This document shows positions 1 through 13,712 of a DNA stretch of 13,712 bases, piece after piece. The DNA is from an uncultured bacterium (lineage in GTDB: Bacteria; Patescibacteriota; Minisyncoccia; Phycocordibacterales; PALSA-1337). Positions within the stretch are counted from its first letter, which is position 1; every line of letters begins with the position of its first letter. The DNA is taken from positions 1 to 13,712 of the forward strand of contig CAIQCA010000067.1 in assembly GCA_903870235.1 (NCBI GenBank). The letters run 5' to 3'. The notes beneath the pieces were generated by a model that was not told the DNA's origin, made no database searches, and saw nothing but the letters and a program-made list of their open reading frames with translations. The position numbers and the translations under genes are program-made.

Positions 1-4
1 TCGT

Positions 5-538
5 TCATTCCCTTATCTCCATTAACAATTTTCCCAGATTGTTTTCGCCTTCACCTTTTTCACTGGCTACAGTCTTATGCACTCCCCAAAAAGTATCCTT
101 CCAATAGTTCGTCTCCTCCAGATACTTACTACCGGTTTCCATAAGTTTTGCAAAAATTTCTGGATTCAAAGTCCTATCAAATTTCTGAAGTAAAAGCTTT
201 CTCATGACCTCTAGTTTTATACTATTCCACTCCAGGGATGTGTAGGCATCTCCCGGATGTTCCCTAACATAGTAAATAGCCTCTTTGGGAGTACATGTCT
301 TGAAATAAGTTCTTGATTCTTTTTTGAATTTAGCGGCCTGATAGGCATTTTCAGAAAAACCATACTCTTCTCCGTCTAGAAATACTTTGGCCGGCCAGAA
401 ATTACTTAGAAATCTGTATTCACCAAAAAATCCTTTTATTTCAGTCTCACTGTGAGTAGCGATCTCCTTCCATTGACCCTTCTCAAAAGGCGTACCTGGT
501 TTGAGACCCTGTTCATCAAAAATAATTTTTTCTGCCAT
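5..538 (-). CDS. NADAR-family protein (YbiA-like N-glycosidase fold)
   Basis: The 177-aa product matches the NADAR family. YbiA-type members cleave N-glycosidic bonds in damaged riboflavin intermediates, and other members act on ADP-ribose-type substrates. Visible motifs are FFGEYRFLSNFWPA (37-50), SENAYQAAK (62-70, with the family's conserved Glu at 63), a Lys-Phe pair at 119-120 in the helical core, DTFWG (148-152) and the C-terminal GENNLGKLLM (164-173). About 35 residues precede the usual start of the domain. The stop lies at the window edge. There is no SD: an extended -10 (TGATATACT) ends only 6 nt before the ATG, suggesting a leaderless mRNA. The family assignment is firm; the substrate is not known. 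Confidence 0.88.
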   Translation of the reverse strand: MAEKIIFDEQGLKPGTPFEKGQWKEIATHSETEIKGFFGEYRFLSNFWPAKVFLDGEEYGFSENAYQAAKFKKESRTYFKTCTPKEAIYYVREHPGDAYTSLEWNSIKLEVMRKLLLQKFDRTLNPEIFAKLMETGSKYLEETNYWKDTFWGVHKTVASEKGEGENNLGKLLMEIRE

Positions 539-544
539 GTTTCC

Positions 545-573
545 AGTATATCAAACACCAGTTAAATTGTTAC
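545..573 (-). promoter_or_regulatory. Extended -10 promoter, leaderless, for the NADAR gene
   Basis: On the minus strand TGA-TATACT (553 to 545) is followed by 6 nt and then the ATG at 538, so the predicted transcription start falls on or next to the start codon. A weak -35 (GTAACA, 573-568) sits 17 nt upstream. The layout is shared by four other genes here. Confidence 0.6.
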
Positions 574-610
574 ATGAGTGATTCTGAGCTATTAAGCCAT
601 CACAGATATA

Positions 611-639
611 TTGACATTCAATAAAAATTATGATACTGT
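611..639 (+). promoter_or_regulatory. Promoter TTGACA-N17-TACTGT for the orphan gene at 680
   Basis: A perfect -35 TTGACA (611-616) lies exactly 17 nt before TACTGT (634-639), which is preceded by TGA (631-633). An inverted repeat ACTGT-N5-ACAGT (635-649) overlaps the -10 and predicted start and could be an operator. Leader length would be about 35 nt. Confidence 0.6.
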
Positions 640-679
640 CTCCAACAGTAAAGAACCATTTAAACATAAGGAGACGAGT

Positions 680-1162
680 ATGATAGACGTAATCCAACGT
701 CGGTTAAATGCTCGCTACTATGGAGCATTGGTAAGACCTACGACGGACATAAGTGTCCACGTAAGGTTGAAAAAACCATACGGAACAGAAGAGCCAATCG
801 AGAAGTGGAAAAAACGTGTAGAGGAAAGTTTCCACGCATTGGGACAAGTCCCTTGCCAAGGAATAATCAAGGTTAAGGTCCAGTCACCACTGTGGAATAT
901 GACTGAAGGTGCACTCACTATCTTCGATGATCAGACGGTTCACAGTATCCAACCGTTGATCTTCGAGATATACAACGCCATTAGCGGGTTCCACCTCTGT
1001 ACCAAGCCTTTCGATGCGTACATCGTGGCGACCGTGGTAATTCAGAGCGTATTCCTAGAACGGGAATCCGTATCTGTCCCATTCGCAACCTTGGACACCG
1101 AACTACATGTGGCCCCGACACGTTTTCTGAAAGTGACGGTACCGTCACCGATGATGAACTGA
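680..1162 (+). CDS. Hypothetical protein, 160 aa, soluble
   Basis: The family is not recognised. I place the start at ATG 680 rather than an in-frame ATG at 611, because AAGGAG (667-672) sits 7 nt upstream of 680 and because 611 falls inside a promoter -35 box. The product has no signal peptide or membrane segment. It looks like a mixed alpha/beta protein with a basic first half (several KKP/KWKK stretches, residues 30-45) and alternating hydrophobic strands in the second half. It is a self-contained unit: promoter at 611, SD, one gene and a terminator 8 nt after the stop. It converges with the operon ending at 1266. Confidence 0.7.
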   Translation: MIDVIQRRLNARYYGALVRPTTDISVHVRLKKPYGTEEPIEKWKKRVEESFHALGQVPCQGIIKVKVQSPLWNMTEGALTIFDDQTVHSIQPLIFEIYNAISGFHLCTKPFDAYIVATVVIQSVFLERESVSVPFATLDTELHVAPTRFLKVTVPSPMMN

Positions 1163-1168
1163 TGACAG

Positions 1169-1198
1169 ACTGAACCTGAGATACGGTTCAGTTTTTTG
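1169..1198 (+). terminator. Intrinsic terminator after the orphan gene at 680
   Basis: CTGAACC (1170-1176) pairs with GGTTCAG (1185-1191) around an 8-nt loop, followed by six T (1192-1197) and then GTT. It lies 8 nt past the stop codon. Confidence 0.88.
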
Positions 1199-1218
1199 TT
1201 ATCATAATAAATTTATAA

Positions 1219-1253
1219 ACAAAAAAGGAGAGAAGCCGAAGGCCTCTCTCCTT
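1219..1253 (-). terminator. Intrinsic terminator of the ATPase operon
   Basis: Read on the minus strand, AAGGAGAGA (1253-1245) pairs with TCTCTCCTT (1233-1225), with an inner GCC/GGC pairing around a three-base loop, and runs into a T-run and GTTTAT. It lies 12 nt after the stop at 1266. Its tail faces that of the plus-strand terminator across an AT-rich spacer. Confidence 0.88.
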
Positions 1254-1265
1254 AACTTTCCACCA

Positions 1266-1667
1266 TTACCGACGGCCAATACGAGCTGCTGGGTGAGGAG
1301 TCAAAATTTCTTCCTCAGTAGGCCCAGTCGGCGATGTAGTCTCCAATTCACCATCCTCATGGAATGGATTCAGCTTGGTGATAAGCCCGCTTATAATCGC
1401 GGATATAGCCACCAAGATAAATGCCGAGACGAGGAGATCGATCGGCCACCATTTTGCCACAACTACTGGCTGATATATGGCGACCATTACAAAGGAGACC
1501 CAATGACTCATGCAGTAATGACACGACGCCAATTTGCCGAGCCACCGACTTTGACTTCTCACCCAAGTTCGCATTGAAGCGAACAACTGGGACTTGGTCA
1601 AAGTAACTGATATTGCGGATACTGCGGACGCAAGAGCGACGAGCTGATACGGTTGAATAGTATTCAT
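1266..1667 (-). CDS. Small membrane protein with CxxC motif, DUF1360-like
   Basis: This 133-aa protein is a likely integral membrane protein: hydrophobic segments lie near residues 7-24, 55-72 and 75-97. Between the first two is a basic loop (RTWVRSQSRW, 33-42) leading into SCHYCMSHWVSF, with a CxxC pair at C49/C52. This layout resembles DUF1360-type small membrane proteins (CPxCxxxWV pattern), whose role is unknown. The C-terminal 30 residues are polar and Pro/Glu-rich. It is the last gene of the ATPase operon: its SD (AAGGAGA, 1681-1675) overlaps the stop codon of the preceding gene, implying translational coupling, and a terminator follows. The membrane topology is supported by hydropathy only; the family call is tentative. 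Confidence 0.65.
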   Translation of the reverse strand: MNTIQPYQLVALASAVSAISVTLTKSQLFASMRTWVRSQSRWLGKLASCHYCMSHWVSFVMVAIYQPVVVAKWWPIDLLVSAFILVAISAIISGLITKLNPFHEDGELETTSPTGPTEEEILTPHPAARIGRR

Positions 1668-1679
1668 CGGTTTATCTCC

Positions 1680-1928
1680 TTAGCAACCGCATCTCCGTAA
1701 GGCAACAGGTGATGTCACCGCTACTGCCCTTACTTCTCTTTCTTCCTTGTCGATCTTCTTTCTAATCTGCTTATCGACAGCGTCAGCGGCAACCAGTGCC
1801 CTTTCAATCTCCCCGATCGGATCCTTATCCAATGGGGCCTGGCCCTTAGTTTCCAGAACCTCCACCGATGGAACACTCCCGCCAGGATTTGGCTTGGGCT
1901 TCTTCTTACGAGACATGTCTTGTAACAT
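1680..1928 (-). CDS. Small charged protein coupled to the AAA ATPase
   Basis: This is an 82-aa protein of unknown family. Residues 6-35 are basic and Pro/Gly-rich (SRKKKPKPNPGG), likely disordered. Residues about 38-67 form a strongly charged amphipathic helix of heptad-like character (IGEIERALVAADAVDKQIRK), and the chain ends in RRCGC with Cys80 and Cys82. The start is uncertain: AAGGAGG (1938-1932) is only 3 nt from ATG 1928 but 15 nt from the next in-frame ATG at 1916 (MSRKKK), so neither has ideal spacing. The SD overlaps the stop of the ATPase gene, so the two are translationally coupled. A partner, adaptor or substrate role for the ATPase is inference from position. Pup and UBact tags end in a GG-x tail, which this lacks. 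Confidence 0.7.
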   Translation of the reverse strand: MLQDMSRKKKPKPNPGGSVPSVEVLETKGQAPLDKDPIGEIERALVAADAVDKQIRKKIDKEEREVRAVAVTSPVALRRCGC

Positions 1929-1936
1929 ATTCCTCC

Positions 1937-3700
1937 TTAATTTGACTGCCGGAGCTTAATAATCTTGACTGGACCATCGGAGAAGCCCACGAGCTCTCTG
2001 ATCTCATCTTCGTGGTCAAGAATACGGTTTTCTTTTTCGATCCTGTTAACTGCTTCGACAAGATCTTCCTTACTGATACCTCGTGGTTCAGTGCCGCCTT
2101 GGAGGCTGTGTTGCAAGGCAATTGACGTCGCTCGTTCAACACAGCTGACCGCCATGGCTCCGTTTATGATGTGGCTCAAGTTGAGATTACAAACTCCACG
2201 CTTTGTGGTTATCTCATAGAGCACACGACGAGGTGAAAACAACTCGCCACTTACGAACTCAGCCAACTCTTCACAAGTACTGCCGTTGTAAAGCGGCACT
2301 TTCTTGAGGTGGAGCGTGATTATCTTGGCGGTATTTTCGGCATTGGGCCGATTGACCAAGATCTTCCGATCAACACGATTGTCACGGGTAACGGCTGGAT
2401 CAAGGATGTCTGGCCGGTTGGTCGCTAAGATGACCAAGGCACCAGATTCCTCAAGCCCATCCATTTCCGTAAGAAACATGGGGACGATCGTTCGTTCGAT
2501 ATCCGAGCTTATCCCTGAACCGCGTTTGGCCATGATAGCGTCGGCCTCATCGATGAATATGACAGCGGGATAGCCGAACTTCAGCTTATGTTCCCGAGCC
2601 GTAGCAAAGATTTGACGAATCGCTGCTTCCGCAACCCCAACGAACCGATCAAGCACTTCAGGTCCTTTGACATACATGAACCCGCTTGAATTCGTATCAT
2701 TGTTATAAATACGTGCAAGCGCAGTCGCCGTTGCTTTGCCGATCAGCGTCTTACCGCAACCGGCCGGACCAGCCAGCAAGATACCTTTGACAGGTTTCTT
2801 GCCATAGAACTTGAACAGATCTGGATGAGTATGCGGTAACTCAACAGCCTCGATCATTTCCCGCTTGGCTTCTTCCAAGCCACCGATATCATCCCAGGTG
2901 ACCTTGGTCTCGTTCGTAAAATTGAAACGAGAATCTTCTTTGCCAAGATTACGCAGAACGATCGTCTGAGTATTGTCGACCACGACTCGATCACCCTTCT
3001 CCAGTGTTGCACTATACTTGCCACTGAATACTGCTTTCACCGATGAGTCAATGTCGACTTCGACGAAAGTTTCATCGATAACACGACGAACGTGGCAGAT
3101 AATCCCGTTTGGTTGGGCTGCCGTGACCTTGACGATTTGCATCGTCTGAGTGATGAGACAAACACAATCACCAGAAGAGATCACGGCCCCAGTGGGCAGT
3201 GATACCTCCATGAAGCGTTCATCTACAAGAATGATCGCTGTTGCTTCCTTGACCGTTCCGTCGTCTTTCTTCTTCAAGAGAATAAAAAACTCGGCAATGT
3301 CAGATACCGACGCAAGGATGACTTTGTCACCATCAAGTTGAATGATGGCATCTTGGTCTTCGGTAAACCCAGCGACCTCAAAATGCTTGGCTTCATTCAA
3401 TGCCGCAATCTGAACGTTGGTGATATTCTTCCGCAACAACCTGTCGCCGATACGATATTCACCAAAAGTGATAATCCTTGGATCTGCAATCACTTCCGAC
3501 AAATTTACATCGGTAAACCTTTTTCCCGATCCCAGCTTAGGCTGATTGGACACCGAAATAACGATCGCGTGCACAAACGGCGGACTGGTAAACTGCTCGA
3601 GCGTTTGCTTCTGTTGCATGATGGTCGTCTTTGCCTTCTCCAACGAAGCGCGCAAAGCCCGAACCTGAGCCTGTATTTCTCTATCTTCATCTGCATCCAT
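1937..3700 (-). CDS. ARC/Mpa-like AAA ATPase (coiled coil, OB-like region, AAA)
   Basis: The 587-aa product has the layout of the proteasomal-ATPase-like ARC/Mpa group: an N-terminal coiled coil (about 1-38), a beta-rich OB-like region (about 42-250) and one AAA module (about 265-500) with a helical C-terminal subdomain. Visible motifs are DIGG (271-274), Walker A GPAGCGKT (311-318), aromatic pore loop RFVG (352-355), Walker B VIFIDE (380-385), sensor-1 Asn428 in ATNRPD, and basic residues in DNRVDR (440-445) where arginine fingers fall. Length fits the family (about 590-610). It should form a hexamer that unfolds protein. The C-terminus (KLRQSN) lacks the GQYL tail by which Mpa docks on the 20S proteasome, so partner and substrate are open. 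ATG 3700 has AAGGAGG 7 nt upstream. It leads a three-gene operon. Confidence 0.88.
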   Translation of the reverse strand: MDADEDREIQAQVRALRASLEKAKTTIMQQKQTLEQFTSPPFVHAIVISVSNQPKLGSGKRFTDVNLSEVIADPRIITFGEYRIGDRLLRKNITNVQIAALNEAKHFEVAGFTEDQDAIIQLDGDKVILASVSDIAEFFILLKKKDDGTVKEATAIILVDERFMEVSLPTGAVISSGDCVCLITQTMQIVKVTAAQPNGIICHVRRVIDETFVEVDIDSSVKAVFSGKYSATLEKGDRVVVDNTQTIVLRNLGKEDSRFNFTNETKVTWDDIGGLEEAKREMIEAVELPHTHPDLFKFYGKKPVKGILLAGPAGCGKTLIGKATATALARIYNNDTNSSGFMYVKGPEVLDRFVGVAEAAIRQIFATAREHKLKFGYPAVIFIDEADAIMAKRGSGISSDIERTIVPMFLTEMDGLEESGALVILATNRPDILDPAVTRDNRVDRKILVNRPNAENTAKIITLHLKKVPLYNGSTCEELAEFVSGELFSPRRVLYEITTKRGVCNLNLSHIINGAMAVSCVERATSIALQHSLQGGTEPRGISKEDLVEAVNRIEKENRILDHEDEIRELVGFSDGPVKIIKLRQSN

Positions 3701-3735
3701 GGCACTTCCTCCTTTGTTTTAGTGATGGATTTCAA

Positions 3736-3782
3736 GGAACTAGCGGCTAGTTTAGCCACTTTTGCGTCCCTTCTTAGGACAA
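3736..3782 (-). promoter_or_regulatory. Structured 5' leader of the ATPase operon
   Basis: The approximately 90-nt leader contains two mutually exclusive hairpins on the minus strand: GTGGCTA/TAGCCGC with an AAC loop, or AACTAG/CTAGTT with a CCG loop (3738-3752). A third small hairpin, GTCC/GGAC, lies further upstream near 3780. No T-run follows, so this is not an ordinary terminator. It could be an operator or an RNA switch, or simply chance. Confidence 0.35.
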
Positions 3783-3796
3783 AATAATCTAATTGC

Positions 3797-3825
3797 AAAC
3801 TACTATACAAAACAACTTTCGTCAA
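3797..3825 (-). promoter_or_regulatory. Promoter TTGACG-N17-TAGTTT for the ATPase operon
   Basis: TTGACG (3825-3820) begins immediately after the IMPDH stop codon and is exactly 17 nt from TAGTTT (3802-3797). The -10 is weak alone, but the pattern matches the other class B promoters here. An alternative -10, TATAGT, lies at 3807-3802 but only 12 nt from the -35. Confidence 0.45.
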
Positions 3826-4884
3826 TTAACTCAGCATATCCAATCCCACCAAACTGTGCGGCTTACTTTCTTGCATTGAAGCTGGAGTAATCCTTATAAA
3901 CTGGGCTTTATTCTGAAACTCCTGCAAATTTTTGGCACCGACATAGCCCATGGCCACCTGAATACCAGAAGCTAACTCATCGACTATATCTCCGACCAAG
4001 CCCTTATATGGAACAAGCCCTTCAACTCCTTCTGGAACAATCTTCCTGCCTTTCACCAAATATCGGTCAGACGAATTTTTTTCTTCGAGAACAACCCGTG
4101 AGCCCATACCCCGATATTCTTTGTAATTTTTTCCTTTATGTTTAACCAACTTACCTGGGGCTTCTTCTGTGCCAGCAAATATATTTCCAAGCATCACGCA
4201 ATCTGCTCCAGCTGCCAGAGCTTTTGCTATATCTCCAGACGTACGCATGCCACCATCGGCAATCACTTTCATTCCTAGTTTGTGAGCAGCACTCGCTACT
4301 TCGATAACAGCCGATAATTGTGGCACACCAACACCAGAAACTATTCTCGTCGTACATATGGAACCGGGACCAACTCCTACTTTCACAGCGGCGGCGATCC
4401 CCCACAAATCTTGAACAGCTTCTTTGGTAGCGATGTTTCCTACTATGAGCGGTAGTTTTCCAATTTTATTTTTAATGATGCGTGCTGAAGATATAACCTT
4501 AGCATTGTGCCCGTGAGCGCAATCTATAACCAATACATCTATTCTAGCTTTCTTGAGAGCAAGCGCTCTCTTCTCATCAAATGGTCCGCATGCGGCACCA
4601 ACAAGCGCGCCTTTCTTTTTGACTACTTGAACCATATATACCTGACGATCGATTGTACAGTTACGATGAATGATCCCTAATCCACCAGCCTTATGCAAAG
4701 CAACCGCCATAGAACTTTCTGTAACTCGGTCCATCGCCGCCGATAAAAATGGCCTAGATAATTCCAAGCCCTTAACGCAAACCGCGCGAAGATTTGCTTC
4801 GCGCGGCTCTATTGAACTTCTGTTTGGACGAATCAGTACATCGTCGAAGGTAAATGAGAAATTTGGAATAATCTTCCTTGCCAT
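3826..4884 (-). CDS. guaB: IMP dehydrogenase lacking the CBS (Bateman) domain
   Basis: It oxidises IMP to XMP with NAD+, the committed step of GMP synthesis. The 352-aa protein is the catalytic barrel alone: N-terminal [10 protein letters not shown] (11-20), SAAMDRVTE (48-56), phosphate loop and catalytic Cys177 in [11 protein letters not shown] (170-180), [10 protein letters not shown] (210-219), and the mobile flap with Arg274-Tyr275 in SSDRY followed by [12 protein letters not shown] (284-295). The Arg-Tyr pair and long flap favour IMPDH over GMP reductase. Usual IMPDHs are near 490 aa. The roughly 120-residue nucleotide-sensing CBS pair is missing between about residues 85 and 92, where the barrel runs straight through ([12 protein letters not shown]). 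There is no SD; an extended -10 lies 5 nt before the ATG and 25 nt separate it from the S9 peptidase gene. No terminator is seen after the stop. Confidence 0.92.
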
Positions 4885-4889
4885 GATTC

Positions 4890-4898
4890 ATAATAACA
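4890..4898 (-). promoter_or_regulatory. Extended -10 promoter, leaderless, for the IMPDH gene
   Basis: TGT-TATTAT (4898-4890) is followed by 5 nt and the ATG at 4884. The -35 is poor (TTGCGT at about 16 nt). It lies within the 25-nt gap after the S9 peptidase gene, so IMPDH may be transcribed both from here and by readthrough. Confidence 0.45.
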
Positions 4899-4909
4899 TT
4901 TGTCCAAAG

Positions 4910-6709: not shown

Positions 6710-6713
6710 GTTT

Positions 6714-6725: not shown

Positions 6726-6746
6726 TATTTAGACCCAAAATATGTG

Positions 6747-7031
6747 TTAGAAAGAAATGTCCTCTGATGTTATAGGTGAATGAGCTATACCCATAACCAT
6801 TCTCTGGTTGGCCTCATTTGGTTCACTCACAGAAATAGCAACCCTCGAAGGAAATCCTTTGGAAGCTATATAGTCTGCTATGGCAGCAGCAACATCTTCT
6901 CTCTTCATGGCAGCAAACTGAATACTCGCTATATGCACCTCATGTACCAATTCCTTTAGTTTCTCCTTCACCTCTCCGTTATCTTTGAAGCTGATCCAAT
7001 CAACTTGTCCGGGTGTTTCTTGTCCTTTCAT
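6747..7031 (-). CDS. Hypothetical protein, 94 aa
   Basis: The family is not recognised. The product is soluble. A Lys/Glu-rich amphipathic helix (about 20-34) is followed by a strand, a second helix (KREDVAAAIADYIASKG, 43-59), a strand pair (RVAISVSEP) and a polar tail. There is no SD; the start is preceded by a strongly AT-rich stretch (7032-7071) with several TTTATAA-like elements, so a local promoter cannot be fixed. It sits between the hydrolase gene (40 nt upstream) and the S9 peptidase gene (37 nt downstream) on the same strand and may be co-transcribed with both. Reading frame, compactness and gene order support it as real. Confidence 0.6.
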   Translation of the reverse strand: MKGQETPGQVDWISFKDNGEVKEKLKELVHEVHIASIQFAAMKREDVAAAIADYIASKGFPSRVAISVSEPNEANQRMVMGIAHSPITSEDISF

Positions 7032-7071
7032 GTTTTTATAAATTATTTATAAATTTTATAGAATATATAAG

Positions 7072-7932
7072 TTATTTCAACCACTTAGTTATACTCTTCG
7101 CCAACTGCTGCTCATGACCAAAGTAACTATGTGGAGCCTTATCAATAACTAATGTATCAAACCGTACTGTTTTTTCCGCCTTACTCTTAATTATCTTAAG
7201 TGCTTCTTCTACTGGAAGAATGGCGGCATCATCTATACCTCCTAAAATTGCCAGAACAGGTATATTAATATCTCTGATGCATGATGATGCTTCTCTGTCA
7301 TAGGTATTAAAAACATCAACTGCTGTTCCCCTTTCTGAGAGATTTACATATGTGTCAGCGGAAAGCCAATAAAAATCCCAGAGAAGTTCAGGTAGAAGCT
7401 CCTTGCCCTTCCCTTCTTGAATCAGCTTTTTGGACAACGTCATTCTTCTTTCATGATTTTTATCTTCACTTAGTCCAACCATATCTGAAGGAGAAATCAA
7501 AACAAGCTTTAACACCCGCTTATCTTGCGTCTTTGCGACATAATAAGCAGCTTTGACCGAACCGAGACTGTGACCCTGCAAAATAATTTCCGTATATCCT
7601 TCTTTTACTAGAAAATCTATCCCCGCTTTAATATCATGAACACATTCTTCAAACTTTTCATATGCACTGCCAATCCTTTTATGCTTTTCCTCACTGCCAT
7701 CTATTGGAAAATCAAAAATAATCTGAGCGCCTCGGTTATTTAAAGAGAGGAAAGAATAACCTTCGCCGGTAAACTCTTCTGCCATAAAACCGATAAAAGA
7801 ATTCTCATAGAAATTACCTCCCATTCCATGTATATGTAGAATGGCCTTTTTAGTATCTTTATCCGGAGAATACAAACCACCAGACAGAATTAACTTGTCA
7901 TCGGTCGTAATTCTGACAAAATTAGTTCTCAT
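7072..7932 (-). CDS. Alpha/beta hydrolase (DUF1749-like serine hydrolase)
   Basis: The 286-aa protein has the alpha/beta-hydrolase fold: HIHGMGG (33-39, oxyanion region), nucleophile Ser122 in GHSLG (120-124), acidic Asp234/Asp235 in GGIDD (231-235) and His268 in APHSY (266-270). The order and spacing fit a complete catalytic triad. It resembles DUF1749-type hydrolases whose substrates are unknown. I prefer ATG 7932 to the in-frame ATG at 8016, because the longer form would run through the terminator of the neighbouring gene and lacks the fold's usual start, whereas an extended -10 (TGG-TATACT) lies 7 nt before 7932. There is no SD. The 94-aa orphan follows after 40 nt. Confidence 0.82.
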   Translation of the reverse strand: MRTNFVRITTDDKLILSGGLYSPDKDTKKAILHIHGMGGNFYENSFIGFMAEEFTGEGYSFLSLNNRGAQIIFDFPIDGSEEKHKRIGSAYEKFEECVHDIKAGIDFLVKEGYTEIILQGHSLGSVKAAYYVAKTQDKRVLKLVLISPSDMVGLSEDKNHERRMTLSKKLIQEGKGKELLPELLWDFYWLSADTYVNLSERGTAVDVFNTYDREASSCIRDINIPVLAILGGIDDAAILPVEEALKIIKSKAEKTVRFDTLVIDKAPHSYFGHEQQLAKSITKWLK

Positions 7933-7939
7933 AAAAACA

Positions 7940-7948
7940 AGTATACCA
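7940..7948 (-). promoter_or_regulatory. Extended -10 promoter, leaderless, for the hydrolase gene
   Basis: TGG-TATACT (7948-7940) is followed by 7 nt and the ATG at 7932. At a 17-nt spacing the -35 position is TTTTTT, which is the T-run of the upstream terminator. Confidence 0.55.
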
Positions 7949-7962
7949 AAGTTCCAAAGCAT

Positions 7963-7997
7963 AAAAAAGGAGGTCGTGGACTCTTCCACTCCTCCTT
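7963..7997 (-). terminator. Intrinsic terminator after the receiver-like orphan
   Basis: On the minus strand AAGGAGG (7997-7991) pairs with CCTCCTT (7973-7967), with an inner GTGGA/TCCAC pairing, and ends in a T-run. The stem overlaps the last base of the stop codon at 7997-7999. Confidence 0.88.
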
Positions 7998-8416
7998 CAA
8001 ACCATAAACTCCCCAATCATTCTCTTAACTAGGTGTAAGAGCTTCACCCAATCCCTTTGACCTGTATCAGTCCAACAGGTCTTATCGGCGACAAGCACAC
8101 ATCGCCCATCGAGTGAGTCCGTAAGATCATTCTCGAAATATTCAGGTACGAACATACCAAACCCACGAGCACCACAGCGAATATGACTCATCAGGAACAT
8201 TGACGGCATCGTATCCTCCCCGGTGACATCATAGTCTGGTAACCAAGCATCCGCCAAGATGATATCAAAACGCGCCCTCGGATCAGATACCACTCTTTGA
8301 GCTTCCATGTAAGTGTGGACGACCGTCACGTCGTGGTCATGAAATTCAATATCTGGATCTTGAGCCAGAAATTGCGTTTCTTTATTGCGATAAATACAGA
8401 GTATCTTCAATCTCAT
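7997..8416 (-). CDS. Small orphan protein, possibly a degenerate receiver-like domain
   Basis: The 139-aa product belongs to no family I can name with certainty. It starts with a hydrophobic strand (LKILCIYR, 3-10) and contains RFDIILADAWLPD (49-61), which resembles strand 3 of response-regulator receiver domains with Asp56 where the phospho-acceptor would be. Later come VLVADKT (107-113), like the strand carrying the conserved Lys, and a C-terminal helix. The acidic pair normally ending strand 1 is missing (YRNKE), so phosphorylation is doubtful. No output domain is attached. The start is fixed by AAGGAGG 5 nt before ATG 8416. It forms its own unit, with promoter at 8437-8465 and a terminator at the stop, lodged between hisG and the hydrolase gene. 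Confidence 0.68.
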   Translation of the reverse strand: MRLKILCIYRNKETQFLAQDPDIEFHDHDVTVVHTYMEAQRVVSDPRARFDIILADAWLPDYDVTGEDTMPSMFLMSHIRCGARGFGMFVPEYFENDLTDSLDGRCVLVADKTCWTDTGQRDWVKLLHLVKRMIGEFMV

Positions 8417-8436
8417 TGAAACCTCCTTCTATAGCC

Positions 8437-8465
8437 AAAATAACGTACGAATAGCAATGTGTCAA
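8437..8465 (-). promoter_or_regulatory. Promoter TTGACA-N17-TATTTT for the receiver-like orphan
   Basis: A perfect TTGACA (8465-8460) lies exactly 17 nt before TATTTT (8442-8437). The -35 begins 3 nt after the hisG stop codon. The leader would be about 14 nt and includes the SD. Confidence 0.72.
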
Positions 8466-8468
8466 CAC

Positions 8469-9344
8469 CTAAAGTATCACCTTATTGAGAGGATATTCTA
8501 TGATCCCTTCGGCTCCTGCTTCCTTGAGTTTGGGAATAATATCTCTTACCACCTTTTCCTCAATGATCACTTCGAGAGCAACCGAATCATCGTTATAAAG
8601 ATTGGATACTGTTGGCTTCTTGAGCGCTGGAAGCAAAGCTATAACCGCTTTCAGATTTTTCCTTTCAACATTCATCTTCAACCCAACATTTTCTCCGGCG
8701 AGCAATGCGCCTTTCAACAGAAGAGCAATATCATCAATACGTTTCTTTTTCCAAACACCTTTCATGGCTGCCTTATTTGCAATAAACTTAGTGCTGGATT
8801 CCAAGACCACATCAATTATCTTTAGATTATTAGCCCTTAAGGAAGACCCAGTTTCAGTAAGTTCCGCTATAGCGTCTACGAGTTCAGGAACTTTGACCTC
8901 AGTGGCTCCCCAAGAAAATTCAACTTCAGCTTCAACTTTCTTTCTCTTCAGATAAGCCTTGGTGACATTGACCAGCTCGGTCGCAATCCTCTTTCCTTGA
9001 AGATCTTTAATTGTTTTAATGTCTGAATTTTCAGGGACAGCGATGACTAGCTTAACTTTTCCTAAGCCCGTCTTGGAATACACCAATTCAGATATCTCCT
9101 TTACATCAGCACTTGTCTCCTGTATCCAGTCTTCCCCAGAGAGACCCGCATCCAGAACTCCTTGCTCGACATATTTAGGAATTTCCTGCGCTCTAATCAA
9201 TATACATTCTATATTTTCATCATCGATGGCTGGCCTGTACGATCGTTCATTTACACGTATATTAAATCCACCCTTTTTGAATAATTCGATAGTGGCATTC
9301 TGTAGACTTCCCTTTGGAATACCGAGTTTTATAGTTTTTTTCAT
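8469..9344 (-). CDS. hisG: ATP phosphoribosyltransferase, long form
   Basis: It catalyses the first step of histidine synthesis, joining ATP and PRPP to give phosphoribosyl-ATP. The 291-aa length matches the long, hexameric form. It opens with LGIPKGSL (7-14). The PRPP-binding loop is readable at [19 protein letters not shown] (156-174). Residues about 218-291 form the C-terminal regulatory domain that in this family binds histidine for feedback inhibition. The ATG overlaps the hisI stop as ATGA (9341-9344), so the two are translationally coupled. There is no SD and no terminator after the stop; the next gene's promoter begins 3 nt later. No other his genes are in the window. Confidence 0.95.
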
Positions 9345-9661
9345 TTGATAGTTTTTATATTAGTAGAGAAACAAGTAATATTGCCGGTATGGCATGTTGG
9401 TCCTATTGGTTCTGCTTTGATAAGAAGAGTGTCATTGTCACAATCAACGAATACCTCTTTTAAGATCAAAAAGTGGCCAGAAGATTCCCCTTTGGTCCAA
9501 AGCTTATTTCTTGTCCTACTGAAAAATGTGACTTTGCCAGTCTCAAGTGTCTTTTCCCACGCCTCCTTATTCATAAAACCTAGCATGAGAACTTGCTCAC
9601 TATTTATGTCTTGAATGATAGCTGGTAACAAACCATCCATCTTTTCGAAGTCTAATTTCAT
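9341..9661 (-). CDS. hisI: Phosphoribosyl-AMP cyclohydrolase
   Basis: It opens the adenine ring of phosphoribosyl-AMP, the third step of histidine synthesis. The 106-aa product is the stand-alone cyclohydrolase without the HisE pyrophosphohydrolase domain. Visible features are [11 protein letters not shown] (25-35), [18 protein letters not shown] (46-63), the metal-binding VDCDND (72-77) with Asp73, Asp75 and Asp77, and three Cys (74, 90, 97) at the family's zinc positions, including PTCHTG (88-93). I choose ATG 9661; the in-frame ATG at 9679 adds six residues and would lie inside the -10 box. There is no SD. The gene is first in a hisI-hisG pair with an ATGA overlap. Confidence 0.93.
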
Positions 9662-9669
9662 AGTCTTAC

Positions 9670-9678
9670 AATATAACA
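9670..9678 (-). promoter_or_regulatory. Extended -10 promoter, leaderless, for hisIG
   Basis: TGT-TATATT (9678-9670) is followed by 8 nt and the ATG at 9661. There is no good -35. The placement predicts a leaderless or nearly leaderless mRNA. Confidence 0.5.
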
Positions 9679-9765
9679 AAAAATGATTTAAGTAAAATGG
9701 GAGTGCCTAAAACAGTGGACATGTGGGATGGGGTTGGAAAGATTTAAGAACAATCTCAACCAAAA

Positions 9766-9796
9766 CAAAAAGCGCCGTACCCGAAGGTCGTGCGCC
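9766..9796 (-). terminator. Intrinsic terminator after the 151-aa orphan
   Basis: On the minus strand, GCGC (9795-9792) pairs with GCGC (9775-9772). An internal loop and ACC/GGT then close a TTCG tetraloop, and the hairpin is followed by TTTTTGTTTTG. It lies 25 nt after the stop. Confidence 0.75.
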
Positions 9797-9820
9797 CGTT
9801 CTACTATTGTGAATTTGTGC

Positions 9821-10276
9821 TCAAGCCGCAAAGACTTCGGCGACACCATGGTCAACGACCACAACTGCCACACCTTTCGTTTCTTTCAGCTTTTTTGCAG
9901 CGTCTTTGTCAAAAGTACTGAGTGCCCCTTGAATACCGTCACGCATGGCCAGACCTCGCGCGAAAGGGACTTCCCCTTTATCGCGAATTTCTTGCCAATT
10001 GTATCCAGGCATCAGAATATCTGCGAGCAGGGCCCCATGAACATCATCGACATTCAAAAGCACGATCACAGCTTTGTCCGCCGTCAGACCCCGTTCCGTC
10101 AAGCGGCGTTTGAAATGCTCGACGCGGTCAGTGTTCAGCTCCAGCGTATTCCGACAATTGCTTTTTTCAACCGCATGAGCTACTGCCAAGGCAACCGGAT
10201 CATCCAGAACCAATTTGCCACCAACTTCACGAACAACTGCCATGGGGTAATGTTCTTTCTTCCTGCGCTTGCTCAT
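9821..10276 (-). CDS. Hypothetical protein, 151 aa
   Basis: The family is not recognised. The soluble product begins with a very basic segment (MSKRRKKEHYP). It then has a strand-rich region, a helix around RVEHFKRRLTERG, a hydrophobic strand KAVIVLLNVDDVHG, and ends in GVAVVVVDHGVAEVFAA, which looks like a buried strand followed by a short helix. I choose ATG 10276 over 10312 because AAAGGAA lies about 9 nt upstream and the first 12 residues of the longer form encode the leader and SD. The unit is complete in itself, with promoter at 10321-10349 and a terminator at 9766-9796. It is divergent from the orphan at 10465. Codon use looks more GC-rich than in hisIG. Confidence 0.72.
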   Translation of the reverse strand: MSKRRKKEHYPMAVVREVGGKLVLDDPVALAVAHAVEKSNCRNTLELNTDRVEHFKRRLTERGLTADKAVIVLLNVDDVHGALLADILMPGYNWQEIRDKGEVPFARGLAMRDGIQGALSTFDKDAAKKLKETKGVAVVVVDHGVAEVFAA

Positions 10277-10320
10277 TATTCTGTTTCCTTTCATTTTTTC
10301 AGACTCAAACAACCAAAATT

Positions 10321-10349
10321 AGTTTACCATATAGTGATAAGTATGTCAA
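10321..10349 (-). promoter_or_regulatory. Promoter TTGACA-N17-TAAACT for the 151-aa orphan
   Basis: A perfect TTGACA (10349-10344) lies 17 nt before TAAACT (10326-10321), which is preceded by TGG. The leader is about 38 nt. It lies in the shared divergent region with the gene at 10465. Confidence 0.65.
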
Positions 10350-10402
10350 TGTATCCGTAATGCTTCGATAGCTTGGAATCACCATACTCTAGTGGTTGTA
10401 AA

Positions 10403-10431
10403 TTGACTCGATTGTGGTAGTCTGGAATTTA
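10403..10431 (+). promoter_or_regulatory. Weak promoter candidate for the orphan at 10465
   Basis: TTGACT (10403-10408) has a poor -10 (AATTTA) at 17 nt. An alternative is TTGTAA (10396-10401) with TGG-TAGTCT (10415-10423). Neither is decisive. Confidence 0.3.
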
Positions 10432-10464
10432 GAGAACAAAAACAATCAAAAGAAAGAGTGTCTG

Positions 10465-10917
10465 ATGAAATCAAATGAACTGTTAGCTCTCAAAGACCTG
10501 TCCGCTTACAGAGTTATGACCTGTTACTGGGCGCAACTCTCCCATGGTTTAATGGGAACATTCCCGGCTCTTATCGCCAAAACCAAGGATATGTTTGTCT
10601 GTGCGGACAAGCAAACCCTTGGCAAGATTCTTGAGACCATGCCGAAGCGACGGTTCGCGATCATGCCTAGCCTGATGATCGTTAACGAGGCAGACCGTCT
10701 AGCCTTCGACATTCACGCACTGCACAACTGCCATGATATGGGCAAGGAATCCGAGTCATTGCCAGTTATCCTCGCCGACGATCTTCAGACGATGACGAGC
10801 GCACAGCACGGTAATTCGCCACTATTCAAATGGGCCCCTGGTCTCATCGGCGACGACATGTCGCCGGCAGAATTTGCTGAGACATTACAAACCGCTCTCA
10901 AGCAAGCTCGAGATTAA
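10465..10917 (+). CDS. Hypothetical protein, 150 aa
   Basis: The family is not recognised. The soluble product has an N-terminal helix (NELLALKDLSAYRVMTCYW), a hydrophobic strand region (FAIMPSLMIV), a His/Cys cluster (HALHNCHD) in the middle that could bind a metal, a strand (LPVILADD) and a C-terminal helix (PAEFAETLQTALKQARD). I choose ATG 10465 over the in-frame ATG at 10414, because AAAGAG lies about 8 nt upstream and 10414 falls in the promoter region. A terminator follows after 34 nt. It converges with the TrpF-like gene and diverges from the 151-aa orphan. Confidence 0.68.
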   Translation: MKSNELLALKDLSAYRVMTCYWAQLSHGLMGTFPALIAKTKDMFVCADKQTLGKILETMPKRRFAIMPSLMIVNEADRLAFDIHALHNCHDMGKESESLPVILADDLQTMTSAQHGNSPLFKWAPGLIGDDMSPAEFAETLQTALKQARD

Positions 10918-10951
10918 ATCCGGCGACATTTGACTCACGACCACATGAAGT

Positions 10952-10990
10952 AACCTGCCCTACAATATAAACGATGGGCAGGTTTTTTGT
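10952..10990 (+). terminator. Intrinsic terminator after the orphan at 10465
   Basis: AACCTGCCC (10952-10960) pairs with GGGCAGGTT (10976-10984) around a 15-nt loop, followed by a T-run and GTTTTT. Confidence 0.9.
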
Positions 10991-11003
10991 TTTTAATATA
11001 AAC

Positions 11004-11045
11004 AAAAAACCCCGTCTCCATAGCTTGCACTACAGAATGACGAGG
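11004..11045 (-). terminator. Intrinsic terminator after the TrpF-like gene
   Basis: On the minus strand CCTCGTC (11045-11039) pairs with GACGGGG (11016-11010), and an inner TCTGTAG/CTATGGA stem closes a 6-nt loop. A T-run and GTTTAT follow. It begins 6 nt past the stop and is back to back with the plus-strand terminator. Confidence 0.88.
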
Positions 11046-11051
11046 CTCGAC

Positions 11052-11843
11052 TCAATGCATAATTTTCGTCACCAATCTGAACATATCGAGAGCTCTGATG
11101 AGATATCTCTCTGCGAAGTTCCAGTCGACAGGATCAAGGATATCACCACTCGGTCGTAGCTTTCCCTGTGCATCGATGGAGAGGTCAAGAAACTCCAGAA
11201 CTAGAGGCCGAACCAGATCAACCGACTCAGGTCCAAGCCCGCCAGCAGCTACGATTCCGAGGTCCGGAAATGCATTCCGAATAGCTCGTGCATATGGGAT
11301 AAGCCCAACAGCATCCATCCCGATTCCTCGGCCCGCGCTTCTGTCGAGGAGAACCCGACAAATAACTCCTTCATAGTCCCGAAGTCTTTCGACAACAGCG
11401 TCCGGATCATCGCCCGCTTCTTCGAAAGCCTTGTTGCCAACCTGAAGGATGACTTCGAGGTTCTTCCGCGAAGCGTGGACCGCGTTTGCAACTTCTCCTG
11501 GATCTGGCCAGGTTATGTCCAATTGCAAAGCATCTATACCCATGCCCCCATATTGGATGGCGTGAAGTAACGATTTCCAAAGCTCTGGATGACCCCTATA
11601 GTCCGCGTAATGTAAACAATTGTAAGTCTCGTCCGAAGCGAAGATGCTTGCAATCGTTTCTTTCGGCGGAAAGACTTTCGAGAACTGAGTCTCGATACCA
11701 TGAAGCGTCTTGTAACTCATCATGACACCGACATGAAGCTTCCGATTCAACCCTCGCTGACTGTGCTTCTTGAACACTGAGAGCATCCTCTTGACCTGAT
11801 CGAAGTTCGTAAAATCGGTAATTCCGATGTAAGGAACGTTCAT
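11052..11843 (-). CDS. TrpF-like TIM-barrel protein without the catalytic Cys
   Basis: The 263-aa product reads as a (beta/alpha)8 barrel related to phosphoribosylanthranilate isomerase. Matches run in order: IGITDFTNFDQ (6-16) against the TrpF start ICGIT, LLDRSAGRG (165-173) against the LLDS...GGTG strand, VAAGGLGPESV (198-208) against the phosphate-binding AGGLxPENV, and LSIDAQGKL (221-229) against the VDVSSGVE...G strand. The TrpF general-base Cys is replaced by Ile6; the partner Asp appears kept as Asp167. It is also longer than TrpF (about 200 aa), with an insertion between strands 2 and 3. No trp genes are nearby. Isomerase activity is therefore doubtful and the role open. ATG 11843 has AAAGGGG 7 nt upstream; a promoter and a terminator frame the gene. 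Confidence 0.65.
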   Translation of the reverse strand: MNVPYIGITDFTNFDQVKRMLSVFKKHSQRGLNRKLHVGVMMSYKTLHGIETQFSKVFPPKETIASIFASDETYNCLHYADYRGHPELWKSLLHAIQYGGMGIDALQLDITWPDPGEVANAVHASRKNLEVILQVGNKAFEEAGDDPDAVVERLRDYEGVICRVLLDRSAGRGIGMDAVGLIPYARAIRNAFPDLGIVAAGGLGPESVDLVRPLVLEFLDLSIDAQGKLRPSGDILDPVDWNFAERYLIRALDMFRLVTKIMH

Positions 11844-11877
11844 ACTTATACCCCTTTCTTGTTTAACTCTAAAATTG

Positions 11878-11906
11878 ATACTAAAACACTTTTATAGAAA
11901 AGTCAA
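11878..11906 (-). promoter_or_regulatory. Promoter TTGACT-N17-TAGTAT for the TrpF-like gene
   Basis: TTGACT (11906-11901) lies 17 nt before TAGTAT (11883-11878). The leader is about 28 nt. Confidence 0.62.
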
Positions 11907-11914
11907 TTGCTGAC

Positions 11915-11924
11915 CGACTTGAGC
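11915..11924. repeat. Decamer CGACTTGAGC, first copy
   Basis: An exact copy of the core decamer that recurs at 11989-11998 and 12821-12830. It lies just upstream of the TrpF-like promoter. Confidence 0.6.
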
Positions 11925-11986
11925 TAGAACCGTGTGGGGTCTTGCCCAGATTGGCGGATTTAGGTAGTTTTATGATACCACGTCGA

Positions 11987-12000
11987 CGCGACTTGAGCGC
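11987..12000. repeat. 14-bp direct repeat, left copy, next to the CDPS stop
   Basis: CGCGACTTGAGCGC, identical to 12819-12832. It ends 3 nt from the stop codon of the CDPS-like gene and stands out as GC-rich against that AT-rich gene. Confidence 0.8.
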
Positions 12001-12003
12001 ATT

Positions 12004-12750
12004 CTATTTACTGAAATCAAAAGTTTCGATATCAAGCCTATCAAATTCATATAATTTTTTGTTTAAACCGTCGTACCAACTATTTTCATATGTATTCTTA
12101 GGATTCTGAAGATTGAAAAAATTCCTTTGAAGCAAATAAATATATGAGCGATGAGGCTTGCCCTGATAGCAATTGAGTATCCACTGCTCTTTATCTTTTG
12201 TATAATCATTTTGCAGTCGCACCTGTCCTTTCATAACAAGATAGCCTAGAAGTATTTCTTCAAGGATATATGAAACCGTAAGATCATTCACCTCTCTATC
12301 CGCACCCCTAATATCATCAGCGACATATTTTTGAAACAAAGCGTCTTGTTCATACATCTTTTTGAAAGCAACCAGATACGAAGAAAATTTCGGACAATCA
12401 AGCAACAGTTGACCCCACGACATAAATGTAAATGCGCTTGGTATGATATAAATATCCTTTCTTATCAGATTGAGCCAAGCACTTTTATGCTCTTCTATCA
12501 GTTTTTGATACTTCAATTTAAGATCAACTGCCTTTTCTGCACTGTATAAATATAGATTGTCCGTATAGACAACTTGAACCCCCACATTAGAGACCTGTAT
12601 CTTAGAAATAAGATACTCATCCATCTCTGAACACTTTTCTGGACTCTGTACATTATTGAGTAGTGGCATCGAAATACCAAAAAAGACAATGCCCGGTTCT
12701 TTGGGAAACTTGTTTATGTCATAAAACTCATTAATTCCTAGTTTTGCCAT
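12004..12750 (-). CDS. Probable tRNA-dependent cyclodipeptide synthase (CDPS)
   Basis: CDPSs take two aminoacyl-tRNAs and release a cyclic dipeptide. The 248-aa product matches in motif order: FFGIS (23-27) fits the GIS strand with nucleophile Ser27, VQVVYTDNLY (58-67) fits the VVYVDT strand, MYEQDALFQKYVADDI (132-147) fits the helix with a FEEDAEF-like motif in AlbC, and SYILEE (160-165) fits the Tyr-x-x-x-Glu pair (Tyr161, Glu165) of the active site. Ser-to-Tyr spacing is 134, against about 141 in AlbC. The residue three after Ser27 is Leu, not the Asn of the NYH subfamily, and I find no clear YH or YP pair after it, so it is divergent and its product cannot be predicted. It is the most AT-rich gene here. 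There is no SD; a consensus extended -10 (TGATATAAT) ends 9 nt before the ATG. No tailoring oxidase or P450 gene lies beside it. Confidence 0.65.
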   Translation of the reverse strand: MAKLGINEFYDINKFPKEPGIVFFGISMPLLNNVQSPEKCSEMDEYLISKIQVSNVGVQVVYTDNLYLYSAEKAVDLKLKYQKLIEEHKSAWLNLIRKDIYIIPSAFTFMSWGQLLLDCPKFSSYLVAFKKMYEQDALFQKYVADDIRGADREVNDLTVSYILEEILLGYLVMKGQVRLQNDYTKDKEQWILNCYQGKPHRSYIYLLQRNFFNLQNPKNTYENSWYDGLNKKLYEFDRLDIETFDFSK

Positions 12751-12759
12751 TACTGATAA

Positions 12760-12768
12760 ATTATATCA
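12760..12768 (-). promoter_or_regulatory. Consensus extended -10 promoter for the CDPS-like gene
   Basis: TGA-TATAAT (12768-12760) is a perfect extended -10, 9 nt before the ATG at 12750. No good -35 is seen, and the leader would be 0-3 nt. Confidence 0.65.
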
Positions 12769-12818
12769 AAATTCTTTGCTAACCGTAACTATGCAGATCT
12801 GTAGAACTATTACATTAT

Positions 12819-12832
12819 CGCGACTTGAGCGC
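12819..12832. repeat. 14-bp direct repeat, right copy, upstream of the CDPS promoter
   Basis: CGCGACTTGAGCGC, identical to 11987-12000. Its end forms the palindrome GAGCGCTC (12827-12834) and leads into two near-tandem 11-mers, GCGCTCGAACT (12829-12839) and GCGCTCGACTT (12840-12850). Confidence 0.8.
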
Positions 12833-12844
12833 TCGAACTGCGCT

Positions 12845-12853
12845 CGACTTGGC
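12845..12853. repeat. Variant decamer copy CGACTTGGC
   Basis: Fourth, imperfect copy of the CGACTTGAGC core, 13 nt after the right 14-bp repeat. Confidence 0.45.
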
Positions 12854-12950
12854 TGCGGGCACTGTATGATGTTAGAACCTCATTAATGAGTATAACAGAC
12901 CTAAATTGGTTCGGGATAGTAAAAACGTGGTAGACACAACTCAACCAGAC
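12854..12950. other. Intergenic stretch with a 12-bp palindrome
   Basis: No gene is seen here. The perfect palindrome CTCATTAATGAG lies at 12879-12890 and could be a dimeric regulator site, though no promoter nearby explains it. Confidence 0.35.
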
Positions 12951-12985
12951 AAAAGAAAGACCCAAACGATTATCCGCCTGGGTCT
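12951..12985 (-). terminator. Intrinsic terminator after the IPT-repeat gene
   Basis: AGACCCA (minus strand, 12985-12979) pairs with TGGGTCT (12964-12958) around a 14-nt loop, followed by TTCTTTTG. It lies 30 nt after the stop. Confidence 0.8.
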
Positions 12986-13015
12986 CTCTGTTTATACTAA
13001 TGTGGCGAAATAATT

Positions 13016-13712
13016 CTATTGAGGAGCATTGAATGTAAAGCCGATTCGATTGCTGTTGATACCACCAGCACCACTTCCAACGACACCGACCTGATACAGT
13101 CCAGAACTGACCATGCCACCAAAGGCTCCGCCAAGTGTAAATGTGACGCTGTTTGAAGTAACAGAAGACGGTACTACAGAAGCTGCAAATTGACTACCTG
13201 CGGCGTAGAACTCAACACTTGATACACCAGAGAGGTTTGAACCGTAAATCGTAACTGTAGTATTAGATGACCCCTGTGTCGGACTGATAGAGGTAATGAC
13301 GGGAGCAGAGGTGGACGGAACATTGACTGTAAAGTTAAGCCTGTTGCTGTTGATACCACCAGGGCCATTTCCAACGACGCCAACTTGATATGTTCCAGCG
13401 ACATTATAGGCGAAAGCACCGCTGAGTGTGAAGATAACATTTGTGGCAGAAACGGAAGATGGGACGATCGAACCTGCAAACTGTCCACCTGAAGTATAGA
13501 ACTCAATACTCGATACGCCAGAAAGGTTTGAACCGTAGATTGTTACGGTAGAATTGGAAGTACCTTGAGTTGGGCTAATTGAAGTAATGACGGGAGCTGG
13601 AGATGAGGCTGTTGGAGCATTGAATGTAAAGCCGATTCGATTGCTGTTGATACCACCAGCACCACTTCCAACGACACCGACCTGATACAGTCCAGAACTG
13701 ACCATGCCACCA
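13016..13712 (-). CDS. Tandem IPT/TIG-repeat protein, C-terminal part only
   Basis: The open frame continues past the window edge (two Gly codons precede the first Met at 13705), so the N-terminus, any signal peptide and the total length are not visible. The visible 231 residues are Ig-like IPT/TIG units of 98 residues. Each starts with APVITSISPTQG, continues with TVTIYGSNLSGVSS.EFY and ends with YQVGVVG.G.GGINSNR..FT. The last unit stops right after FTFNAPQ with no anchor, LPXTG or other sorting signal. Composition is rich in Ser, Thr, Gly, Val and Asn, typical of surface or secreted proteins; such repeats usually serve adhesion or as stalks. That location is inference. A terminator follows. 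Confidence 0.85.
   Translation of the reverse strand, partial: GGMVSSGLYQVGVVGSGAGGINSNRIGFTFNAPTASSPAPVITSISPTQGTSNSTVTIYGSNLSGVSSIEFYTSGGQFAGSIVPSSVSATNVIFTLSGAFAYNVAGTYQVGVVGNGPGGINSNRLNFTVNVPSTSAPVITSISPTQGSSNTTVTIYGSNLSGVSSVEFYAAGSQFAASVVPSSVTSNSVTFTLGGAFGGMVSSGLYQVGVVGSGAGGINSNRIGFTFNAPQ
13023..13121. repeat. 99-bp repeat, copy 1, in the IPT gene
   Basis: Identical over 99 bp to 13614-13712, which is 591 bp (two protein repeat units) away. The repeat unit between them is clearly diverged. Confidence 0.9.
13614..13712. repeat. 99-bp repeat, copy 2, in the IPT gene
   Basis: Identical to 13023-13121 and reaching the window edge, so the true length of identity may be greater. Confidence 0.9.

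Follow-up and report, generated by a model that had tools for sequence, protein, structure and literature searches.

Putatively leaderless core genes alternate with GC-richer, Shine-Dalgarno-bearing transcription units that probably circulate among Patescibacteria

A TANNNT box about 10-12 bp before the start codon has been taken as a signal of leaderless genes, and in Lactococcus a TG precedes the box (Zheng et al. 2011, PMC3160421). Loss of the anti-Shine-Dalgarno (anti-SD) sequence has similarly been described: Wolfebacteria, Campbellbacteria, Absconditabacteria and Peribacter are listed as lacking CCUCC and as scarce in Shine-Dalgarno (SD) sites (PMC10783764), and organisms without the classic anti-SD nearly always lack SDs as well (PMC6107228). 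Haloferax volcanii is mostly leaderless, and the SD motifs of some of its genes were shown experimentally to be unused (PMC3986360), while in Patescibacteria single genes are exchanged mostly between members of that group (PMC12455944). Here we describe a 13,712-nucleotide (nt) contig, CAIQCA010000067.1 of assembly GCA_903870235.1 (the window), from an uncultured patescibacterium of the order Phycocordibacterales, along which two kinds of gene alternate. Class A genes have a leaderless box, an extended -10 element just before the ATG, whereas class B units combine TTGACN exactly 17 nt from TANNNT with an SD and an intrinsic terminator. We think it likely that class A represents a leaderless inherited core, and that class B consists of self-contained transcription units drawn from a pool which Patescibacteria share, anti-SD-bearing lineages among them.

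Integron cassettes are small mobile units, mostly orphans and usually promoterless, which carry attC sites and lie in arrays. Class B units resemble them in being small, apparently mobile and mostly orphans; unlike them, they bring their own -35/-10 promoter, SD and terminator, are scattered, and share no edge site that we could find. Class A genes are like the TA-led leaderless genes of PMC3160421 in that the -10 box ends about 6 nt before the start codon and no SD is present; that survey classifies every gene of a genome according to its signal, whereas here there are two compositionally distinct populations in an anti-SD-less lineage. The order lacks CCUCC as do the organisms of PMC10783764, so that anti-SD loss in such bacteria is already in print, but in contrast to the rule of PMC6107228 a subset of genes keeps strong SDs. 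Haloferax volcanii differs in being an archaeon, and the abstract of PMC3986360 describes no compositional or cassette split. PMC12455944 likewise concerns gene exchange in Patescibacteria, and its main text does not use the terms promoter, Shine-Dalgarno or ribosome binding. We did not find this split in the literature on leaderless or SD use in Patescibacteria, our coverage of which excluded subscription papers and preprints.

The window is the entire contig 67 of its genome (G000; 888,912 bases in 167 contigs, 74.6% complete, contamination estimate 0.27%). Sixty other contigs were drawn, 24 of which were masked, and the 36 readable ones together with the window gave 265,404 bases at 42.7% guanine plus cytosine (GC). 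A simple codon-model gene caller called 296 genes, 291 of them scorable; the caller is crude, since start codons are not known and every gene was scored at the best ATG in the early part of its frame, and in the window it recovered the expected genes plus one extra that is probably spurious. When genes were divided at a GC of 0.45, the 76 above the cut included 34 with an SD of at least 5 nt, 26 with a TTGA[CT]N-16..18-TANNNT promoter and 4 with a leaderless box, as compared to 11, 6 and 57, respectively, of the 215 genes at or below it. A terminator lay 3′ of 27/72 GC-rich and 11/197 other genes (2/269 for shuffled downstream sequence), and this association is independent of start-codon choice. 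Pairwise tests among 264 genes linked GC above 0.45 to the SD (p = 4e-13), the class B promoter (p = 2e-11) and the terminator (p = 2e-9), and negatively to the leaderless box (p = 1e-5). The SD was further associated with the terminator (p = 2e-12) and the class B promoter (p = 8e-10), and the leaderless box stood against the SD (p = 7e-5), nine of ten tests being significant. Third-codon-position GC averaged 0.50 for genes with an SD, as compared to 0.39 for all others. SD genes are about twice as common in G000 (43/264) as in ten same-genus genomes (28/380, p = 5e-4), the latter count leaving out contigs chosen for B genes.

Thus the two expression architectures that the first-pass annotation had read from the window are found both there and, across these 264 genes, on contigs beyond it; SD and promoter type, whose independence genome-wide it had named as the refuting outcome, are instead associated. 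Its statement that class A genes lack an SD is borne out, with an SD of at least 5 nt in 0/50 leaderless-box genes and in 43/214 others. The greater GC of class B is also evident genome-wide, whereas in 500-nt windows along the contig the ranges touch (0.41-0.52 for class B, 0.34-0.45 for class A). The proposed division of content, with metabolism in class A and orphans in class B, survives as a tendency and fails as a strict rule. Beyond the window there were 44 B-type and 48 A-type genes, of which 30 and 20, respectively, were scanned against Pfam; the scan left out mainly short or low-GC B genes plus part of the A list, and a domain over cut-off was found in 9/30 B and 14/20 A proteins (p = 0.009). 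Class B is enriched in orphans, yet it also holds metabolic enzymes, including OMP decarboxylase, aconitase and dihydrofolate reductase. One might suspect an assembly or binning artefact, in which foreign DNA was joined to a genome that is, after all, fragmented, incomplete and partly masked in our sample. However, class A and B genes alternate at sub-kilobase spacing within one contig and recur across contigs and in the single-contig genome G141, and the contamination estimate is low, which together make such an artefact highly improbable.

Within the window, TGNTATNNT followed 5-9 nt on by ATG occurs seven times on the two strands. All five class A starts proposed earlier are among these, with gaps of 6, 5, 7, 8 and 9 nt; the remaining two lie at 8267 (-), within a class B gene, and at 12897 (-), before no convincing gene. 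TTGACN-17-TANNNT occurs five times on the two strands, in every case ahead of one of the five proposed class B starts (611 +, 3825 -, 8465 -, 10349 -, 11906 -) and nowhere else. Those starts carry the SDs AAGGAG (680), AAGGAGG (3700) and GAAGGAGG (8416), or the weak sites AAAGGAAA (10276) and AAAGGGG (11843). A generic promoter scan of the window (29 found; shuffles 26.5, sd 6.4) and a terminator scan (13 found; 10.2, sd 3.8) were both at chance level, so only the strict patterns and their positions are informative. These null scans are what one would expect had the motifs been picked by chance, but the strict motifs stand far above shuffles at fixed positions, also on contigs beyond the window; this already contradicts chance picking, which we regard as almost certainly wrong.

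Counting a match to TATAAT in five of six positions as a leaderless box, and measuring the gap to the first ATG, the box ends exactly 6 nt before the ATG in 25 of 193 low-GC genes, 18 of them TG-preceded, with the next peak at 9 nt (11 genes). Gaps of 5-9 nt account for 45 boxes versus 8.9 in shuffles, and there is no excess further upstream in these 193 genes (35 versus 37.8 at gaps of 15-35). The same peak at 6 nt recurs in nine pooled relatives from the order (36/295; 69 versus 10.5 for gaps of 5-9). The -10 hexamer lies 6 nt from the transcription start, and transcription should therefore begin on the ATG. The same positional argument for leaderless genes is used in PMC3160421. Class A hence fits leaderless mRNAs, with start sites predicted from box position. 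In GC-rich genes (n = 69), TTGACN and TANNNT stand 17 nt apart 15 times versus 0.2 in shuffles. The G000 sample has 23 strict 17-spaced sites, 20 of which precede a called gene by 12-150 nt, and 16 of these genes are GC-rich. A spacing of 12 is also over-represented in the GC-rich genes of G000 (6 versus 0.1 in shuffles).

The first-pass annotation had offered three explanations: two RNA polymerase specificities, two modes of translation initiation, or autonomous orphan cassettes inserted among the core genes. Extended -10 elements and -35/-10 pairs are both sigma-70 promoter types, and class B promoters are near-consensus, so a class B unit can be regarded as a sigma-70 unit and a second specificity is not needed. 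It is conceivable, since G000 encodes three Sigma70_r2 proteins, one of which is itself class B-like and could read class B promoters: a divergent sigma-70-type factor (L155, G000:C159; a 325-codon open reading frame (ORF) in a unit of GC 0.50, SD AAAGGAGG) with a divergent C-terminus, the standard RpoD being on C31. However, both promoter types fit the housekeeping sigma-70, and B units also occur in genomes that were not tested for the C159 sigma; we consider a dedicated sigma factor very unlikely. Two initiation modes, by comparison, are supported, given that the class A box at 6 nt before the ATG fits leaderless mRNAs and class B fits self-contained units.

How could such SDs be read? The anti-SD CCUCC is absent from 30/30 readable 16S 3′ ends of the order (30 genomes), a trait that lay beyond the reach of the first-pass annotation. 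Among same-genus 16S loci, 11 of 16 had a readable 3′ end, in which helix 45 is followed by GGAATATTTC where GGATCACCTCC is expected. Similarly, the 19 genomes from other families of the order that were readable, among 30 loci, have GGAATAATTC, GGATCAATTCC and similar at this place, never CCUCC. A CCTC-containing stretch lies about 20 or more nt further down, past the usual 16S end, in L164 and L212. Outside the class but within the phylum, 8/8 16S ends from seven genomes read ACCTCC. The bin of the window genome contains no 16S gene; by the example of its relatives, this genome presumably lacks the anti-SD as well. A leaderless core fits a ribosome of this kind, as found in every readable relative of the order, and the class B grammar should not be readable by base pairing on the order's ribosomes. 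A second, anti-SD-bearing 16S was considered as the reader of class B and rejected: only one 16S match, without anti-SD, was obtained in G141, a single-contig genome that is 99% complete. This genome still has a few clear units, of GC 0.46-0.51 in a 0.34 genome, with an SD and a class B promoter.

Whole-unit mobility was examined in detail for the gene of a 263-amino-acid (aa) protein at 11052-11843, which is duplicated on contig 134 (84% over 922 bp). Similarity between the two copies sets in 8 nt before the -35 and ceases where the terminator T-run ends; this terminator is a long-loop hairpin read by eye, which the automatic detector misses in both copies. The proposal of autonomous cassettes is thereby supported, and it belongs together with that of two initiation modes. 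Between the copies dN/dS (the ratio of nonsynonymous to synonymous substitution) is 0.14-0.19 and dS 0.5-0.6; the protein is therefore under purifying selection, and the duplication is not recent. A database search returned 920 matches, the best outside match at 69%, and the named ones among the matches listed are Patescibacteria. The family is patchy: counting the window genome itself in each tally, it occurs in 2/60 close-relative genomes (G051 being the other among those listed), 32/397 order genomes and 17/379 across the phylum. It is carried by 15 of the 19 anti-SD-less genomes of other families in the order. A search of solved structures with the protein gave no significant match. The second copy may have inserted into a leaderless gene: a 53-codon leaderless ORF (L100, G000:C134, 1279-1437) runs into its -35 as though truncated there, and no homologue of this ORF was found. 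A viral origin was considered and rejected: the 263-aa protein matches 1/50,697 phage records (at 29% identity), the patterns searched turned up no viral contig, and among nine window proteins searched against PHROGs there were matches only for the AAA ATPase and the DUF1360-like protein.

In the order, the grammar follows the gene family and not the genome. The 31 order loci of the family (30 genomes) have an SD of at least 4 nt in 26 cases and of at least 5 nt in 20, a terminator in 20 and a leaderless box in 1; in an equally loose window, 661 other order genes have 166, 70 and 140 for the two SD lengths and the box (p = 7e-12 for SDs of at least 5 nt). In the same-genus pair G171/G212 the SD is retained while the leader around it has diverged. 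A family tree of 59 rows implies 13 label changes for the order, of which well-supported branches require at least 6, and members of one genome family lie apart (f51, G267 versus G290 and G404; f50, G154 versus G084; f71, in two groups). In agreement with transfer as read from the tree, identity for the cassette is 63% in G766 (outside the class) and 55% in G773, as compared to 44% and 43%, respectively, for a core tRNA synthetase that 361/379 phylum genomes have.

A functional split without transfer would also produce two grammars, the same cell using leaderless mRNAs for housekeeping while accessory genes that are regulated or strongly expressed have a leader and a terminator. In its favor, SDs of at least 4 nt are as frequent in family loci inside the anti-SD-less order (26/31) as outside it (13/15, p = 1.0), which is awkward for the transfer reading and would mean that the motif retains some function or that new units continue to come in. 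The purifying selection on both 263-aa copies points the same way, as does gene GC that follows the GC of the host (0.37 where the context has 0.34, 0.57 where it has 0.49), from which residence may be long. However, this explanation does not account for the GC offset (0.482 versus 0.434 in flanks), the patchy family or the mixed tree, and we judge it unlikely.

For circulating units, by contrast, the two populations would differ in expression grammar because their histories differ. Genes of the inherited core, in which about 6 nt separate the extended -10 box (TGNTATAAT) from the ATG, would give leaderless mRNAs with few terminators. The second population would comprise GC-richer units, each with a -35/-10 pair at 17 nt, a short SD leader, a gene or small operon and an intrinsic terminator, which move by horizontal transfer through the Patescibacteria, also through classes whose anti-SD is intact, and insert whole between core genes. 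Because a unit brings its own promoter and terminator, it could be transcribed anywhere by an ordinary sigma-70 polymerase. Translation would start on the AUG of an A-rich, unstructured leader without pairing, or through another reader; we favor start-codon recognition in the unstructured leader. We infer the direction of transfer, and that other class B units behave like the 263-aa family, from these same patterns.

Several observations weigh against circulating units. The split is weaker in relatives: G003 shows no GC enrichment of its SD and B genes and no terminator behind any SD gene; the SD genes of G141 and G171 have a higher GC yet no link to terminators, and those of G017 show neither a GC nor a terminator link. 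The one non-significant pairwise test was that of leaderless box against terminator (3/50 versus 34/214 others, p = 0.07). With a dS of about 0.5-0.6 and no close donor in the database, the 263-aa unit is not a fresh import, and SDs persist in B units for longer than would be expected if they had simply not decayed yet. On the family tree, order labels are more clustered than chance (13 changes against a shuffled mean of 19.7, 3/500 as low), 25/56 inner branches lack resolution and long branches meet, so vertical descent may explain some of the history; among the 12 outside rows, only 5 had their anti-SD status read. Finally, blastn of the readable sampled contigs found no repeat or att-like site common to unit edges, although short or degenerate sites could escape it.

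The other class B genes of the window vary in their distribution. The 160-aa gene has a single relative in the protein database. In contrast, the 151-aa gene has 513 relatives, of which the 120 listed are 69-84% identical, the named ones coming from several Patescibacteria groups, and it occurs in one other genome of 379 phylum genomes (63%). Clear relatives of the ATPase operon were found in only G013 (55%) and G021 (40%) among 33 same-genus genomes searched, and the remaining ATPase matches look like FtsH, judging from the aligned part. The G013 operon has SDs and a GC of 0.55-0.58, other G013 contigs averaging 0.46-0.51. Beside that operon lies an ORF of GC 0.33 (L062, 32-664), reverse transcriptase-like by eye. 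The model that best matches the window ATPase (1937-3700) is that of the Mpa/ARC proteasomal ATPase (NCBIfam TIGR03689), which covers most of the protein; the score of 296.9 bits over residues 7-560 lies well below the cut-off of 504.75, which makes it a distant relative, not a member.

Table 1. Positions of the class A and class B elements in the 13,712-nt window
Feature	Position	Strand	Remarks
Class A extended -10 TGATATACT	545..553	-	ends 6 nt before ATG 538; NADAR-domain gene 5-538 (Pfam)
Class A extended -10 TGTTATTAT	4890..4898	-	ends 5 nt before ATG 4884; IMPDH-domain gene 3826-4884 (Pfam)
Class A extended -10 TGGTATACT	7940..7948	-	ends 7 nt before ATG 7932; alpha/beta hydrolase 7072-7932 (Pfam)
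Class A extended -10 TGTTATATT	9670..9678	-	ends 8 nt before ATG 9661; hisI-like, then hisG-like 8469-9344 (Pfam)
Class A extended -10 TGATATAAT	12760..12768	-	ends 9 nt before ATG 12750; orphan 12004-12750, no Pfam match
Cassette 1 promoter TTGACA-17-TACTGT	611..639	+	
Cassette 1 SD AAGGAG	668..673	+	
Cassette 1 class B orphan, 160 aa	680..1162	+	one protein-database relative (84%) besides itself
Cassette 1 intrinsic terminator	1167..1194	+	terminator scan
ATPase operon promoter TTGACG-17-TAGTTT	3797..3825	-	begins on base after IMPDH stop
Class B AAA ATPase, 587 aa, SD AAGGAGG	1937..3700	-	distant Mpa/ARC-like
ATPase operon small class B orphan, 82 aa, SD AAGGAGG	1680..1928	-	
Class B DUF1360-like protein, 133 aa, SD AAGGAG	1266..1667	-	
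ATPase operon intrinsic terminator, 13-bp stem	1225..1253	-	terminator scan
Promoter TTGACA-17-TATTTT of 8416 gene	8437..8465	-	
Class B orphan, 139 aa, SD GAAGGAGG	7997..8416	-	
8416-gene terminator hairpin	7963..7998	-	by eye; overlaps gene's stop codon, abuts class A promoter of 7932
Promoter TTGACA-17-TAAACT of 10276 gene	10321..10349	-	
Class B orphan, 151 aa	9821..10276	-	513 relatives
10276-gene terminator hairpin	9770..9798	-	by eye
GC-rich orphan, 150 aa, probably class B	10465..10917	+	without strict promoter or SD match
10465-gene terminator hairpin and T-run	10954..10988	+	by eye
Whole duplicated cassette	10994..11914	-	84% DNA identity with second copy on G000:C134
Duplicated cassette promoter TTGACT-17-TAGTAT	11878..11906	-	
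Class B orphan, 263 aa	11052..11843	-	920 protein-database relatives

Around the class A gene at 12004-12750, CGACTTGAGC(GC) occurs three times in intergenic DNA (11986-12000, 12819-12833 and 11916-11925 of G000:C67). A gene for a TIG-repeat protein at 13016-13711, placed in neither class by the first-pass annotation, has a terminator. It contains one copy (13023-13121) of a 99-bp exact repeat, the other lying at the contig end, which may be why the assembly stops there.

A leaderless core, loss of the anti-SD and gene exchange among Patescibacteria are thus joined in one pattern that can be read from sequence. In these genomes, a gene's expression grammar would report its origin and so offer a way to flag imported units. 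They also provide a natural test of whether SDs act once the anti-SD is gone, which organisms with a working anti-SD cannot answer cleanly. It is doubtful, though worth stating, that the cassette SDs are actively kept and read by a factor other than the 16S tail (a protein or a trans RNA), which would give these bacteria a second, orthogonal translation route reserved for imported genes; a bolder and equally doubtful variant is that they are kept for expression of the units in another, anti-SD-bearing cell.

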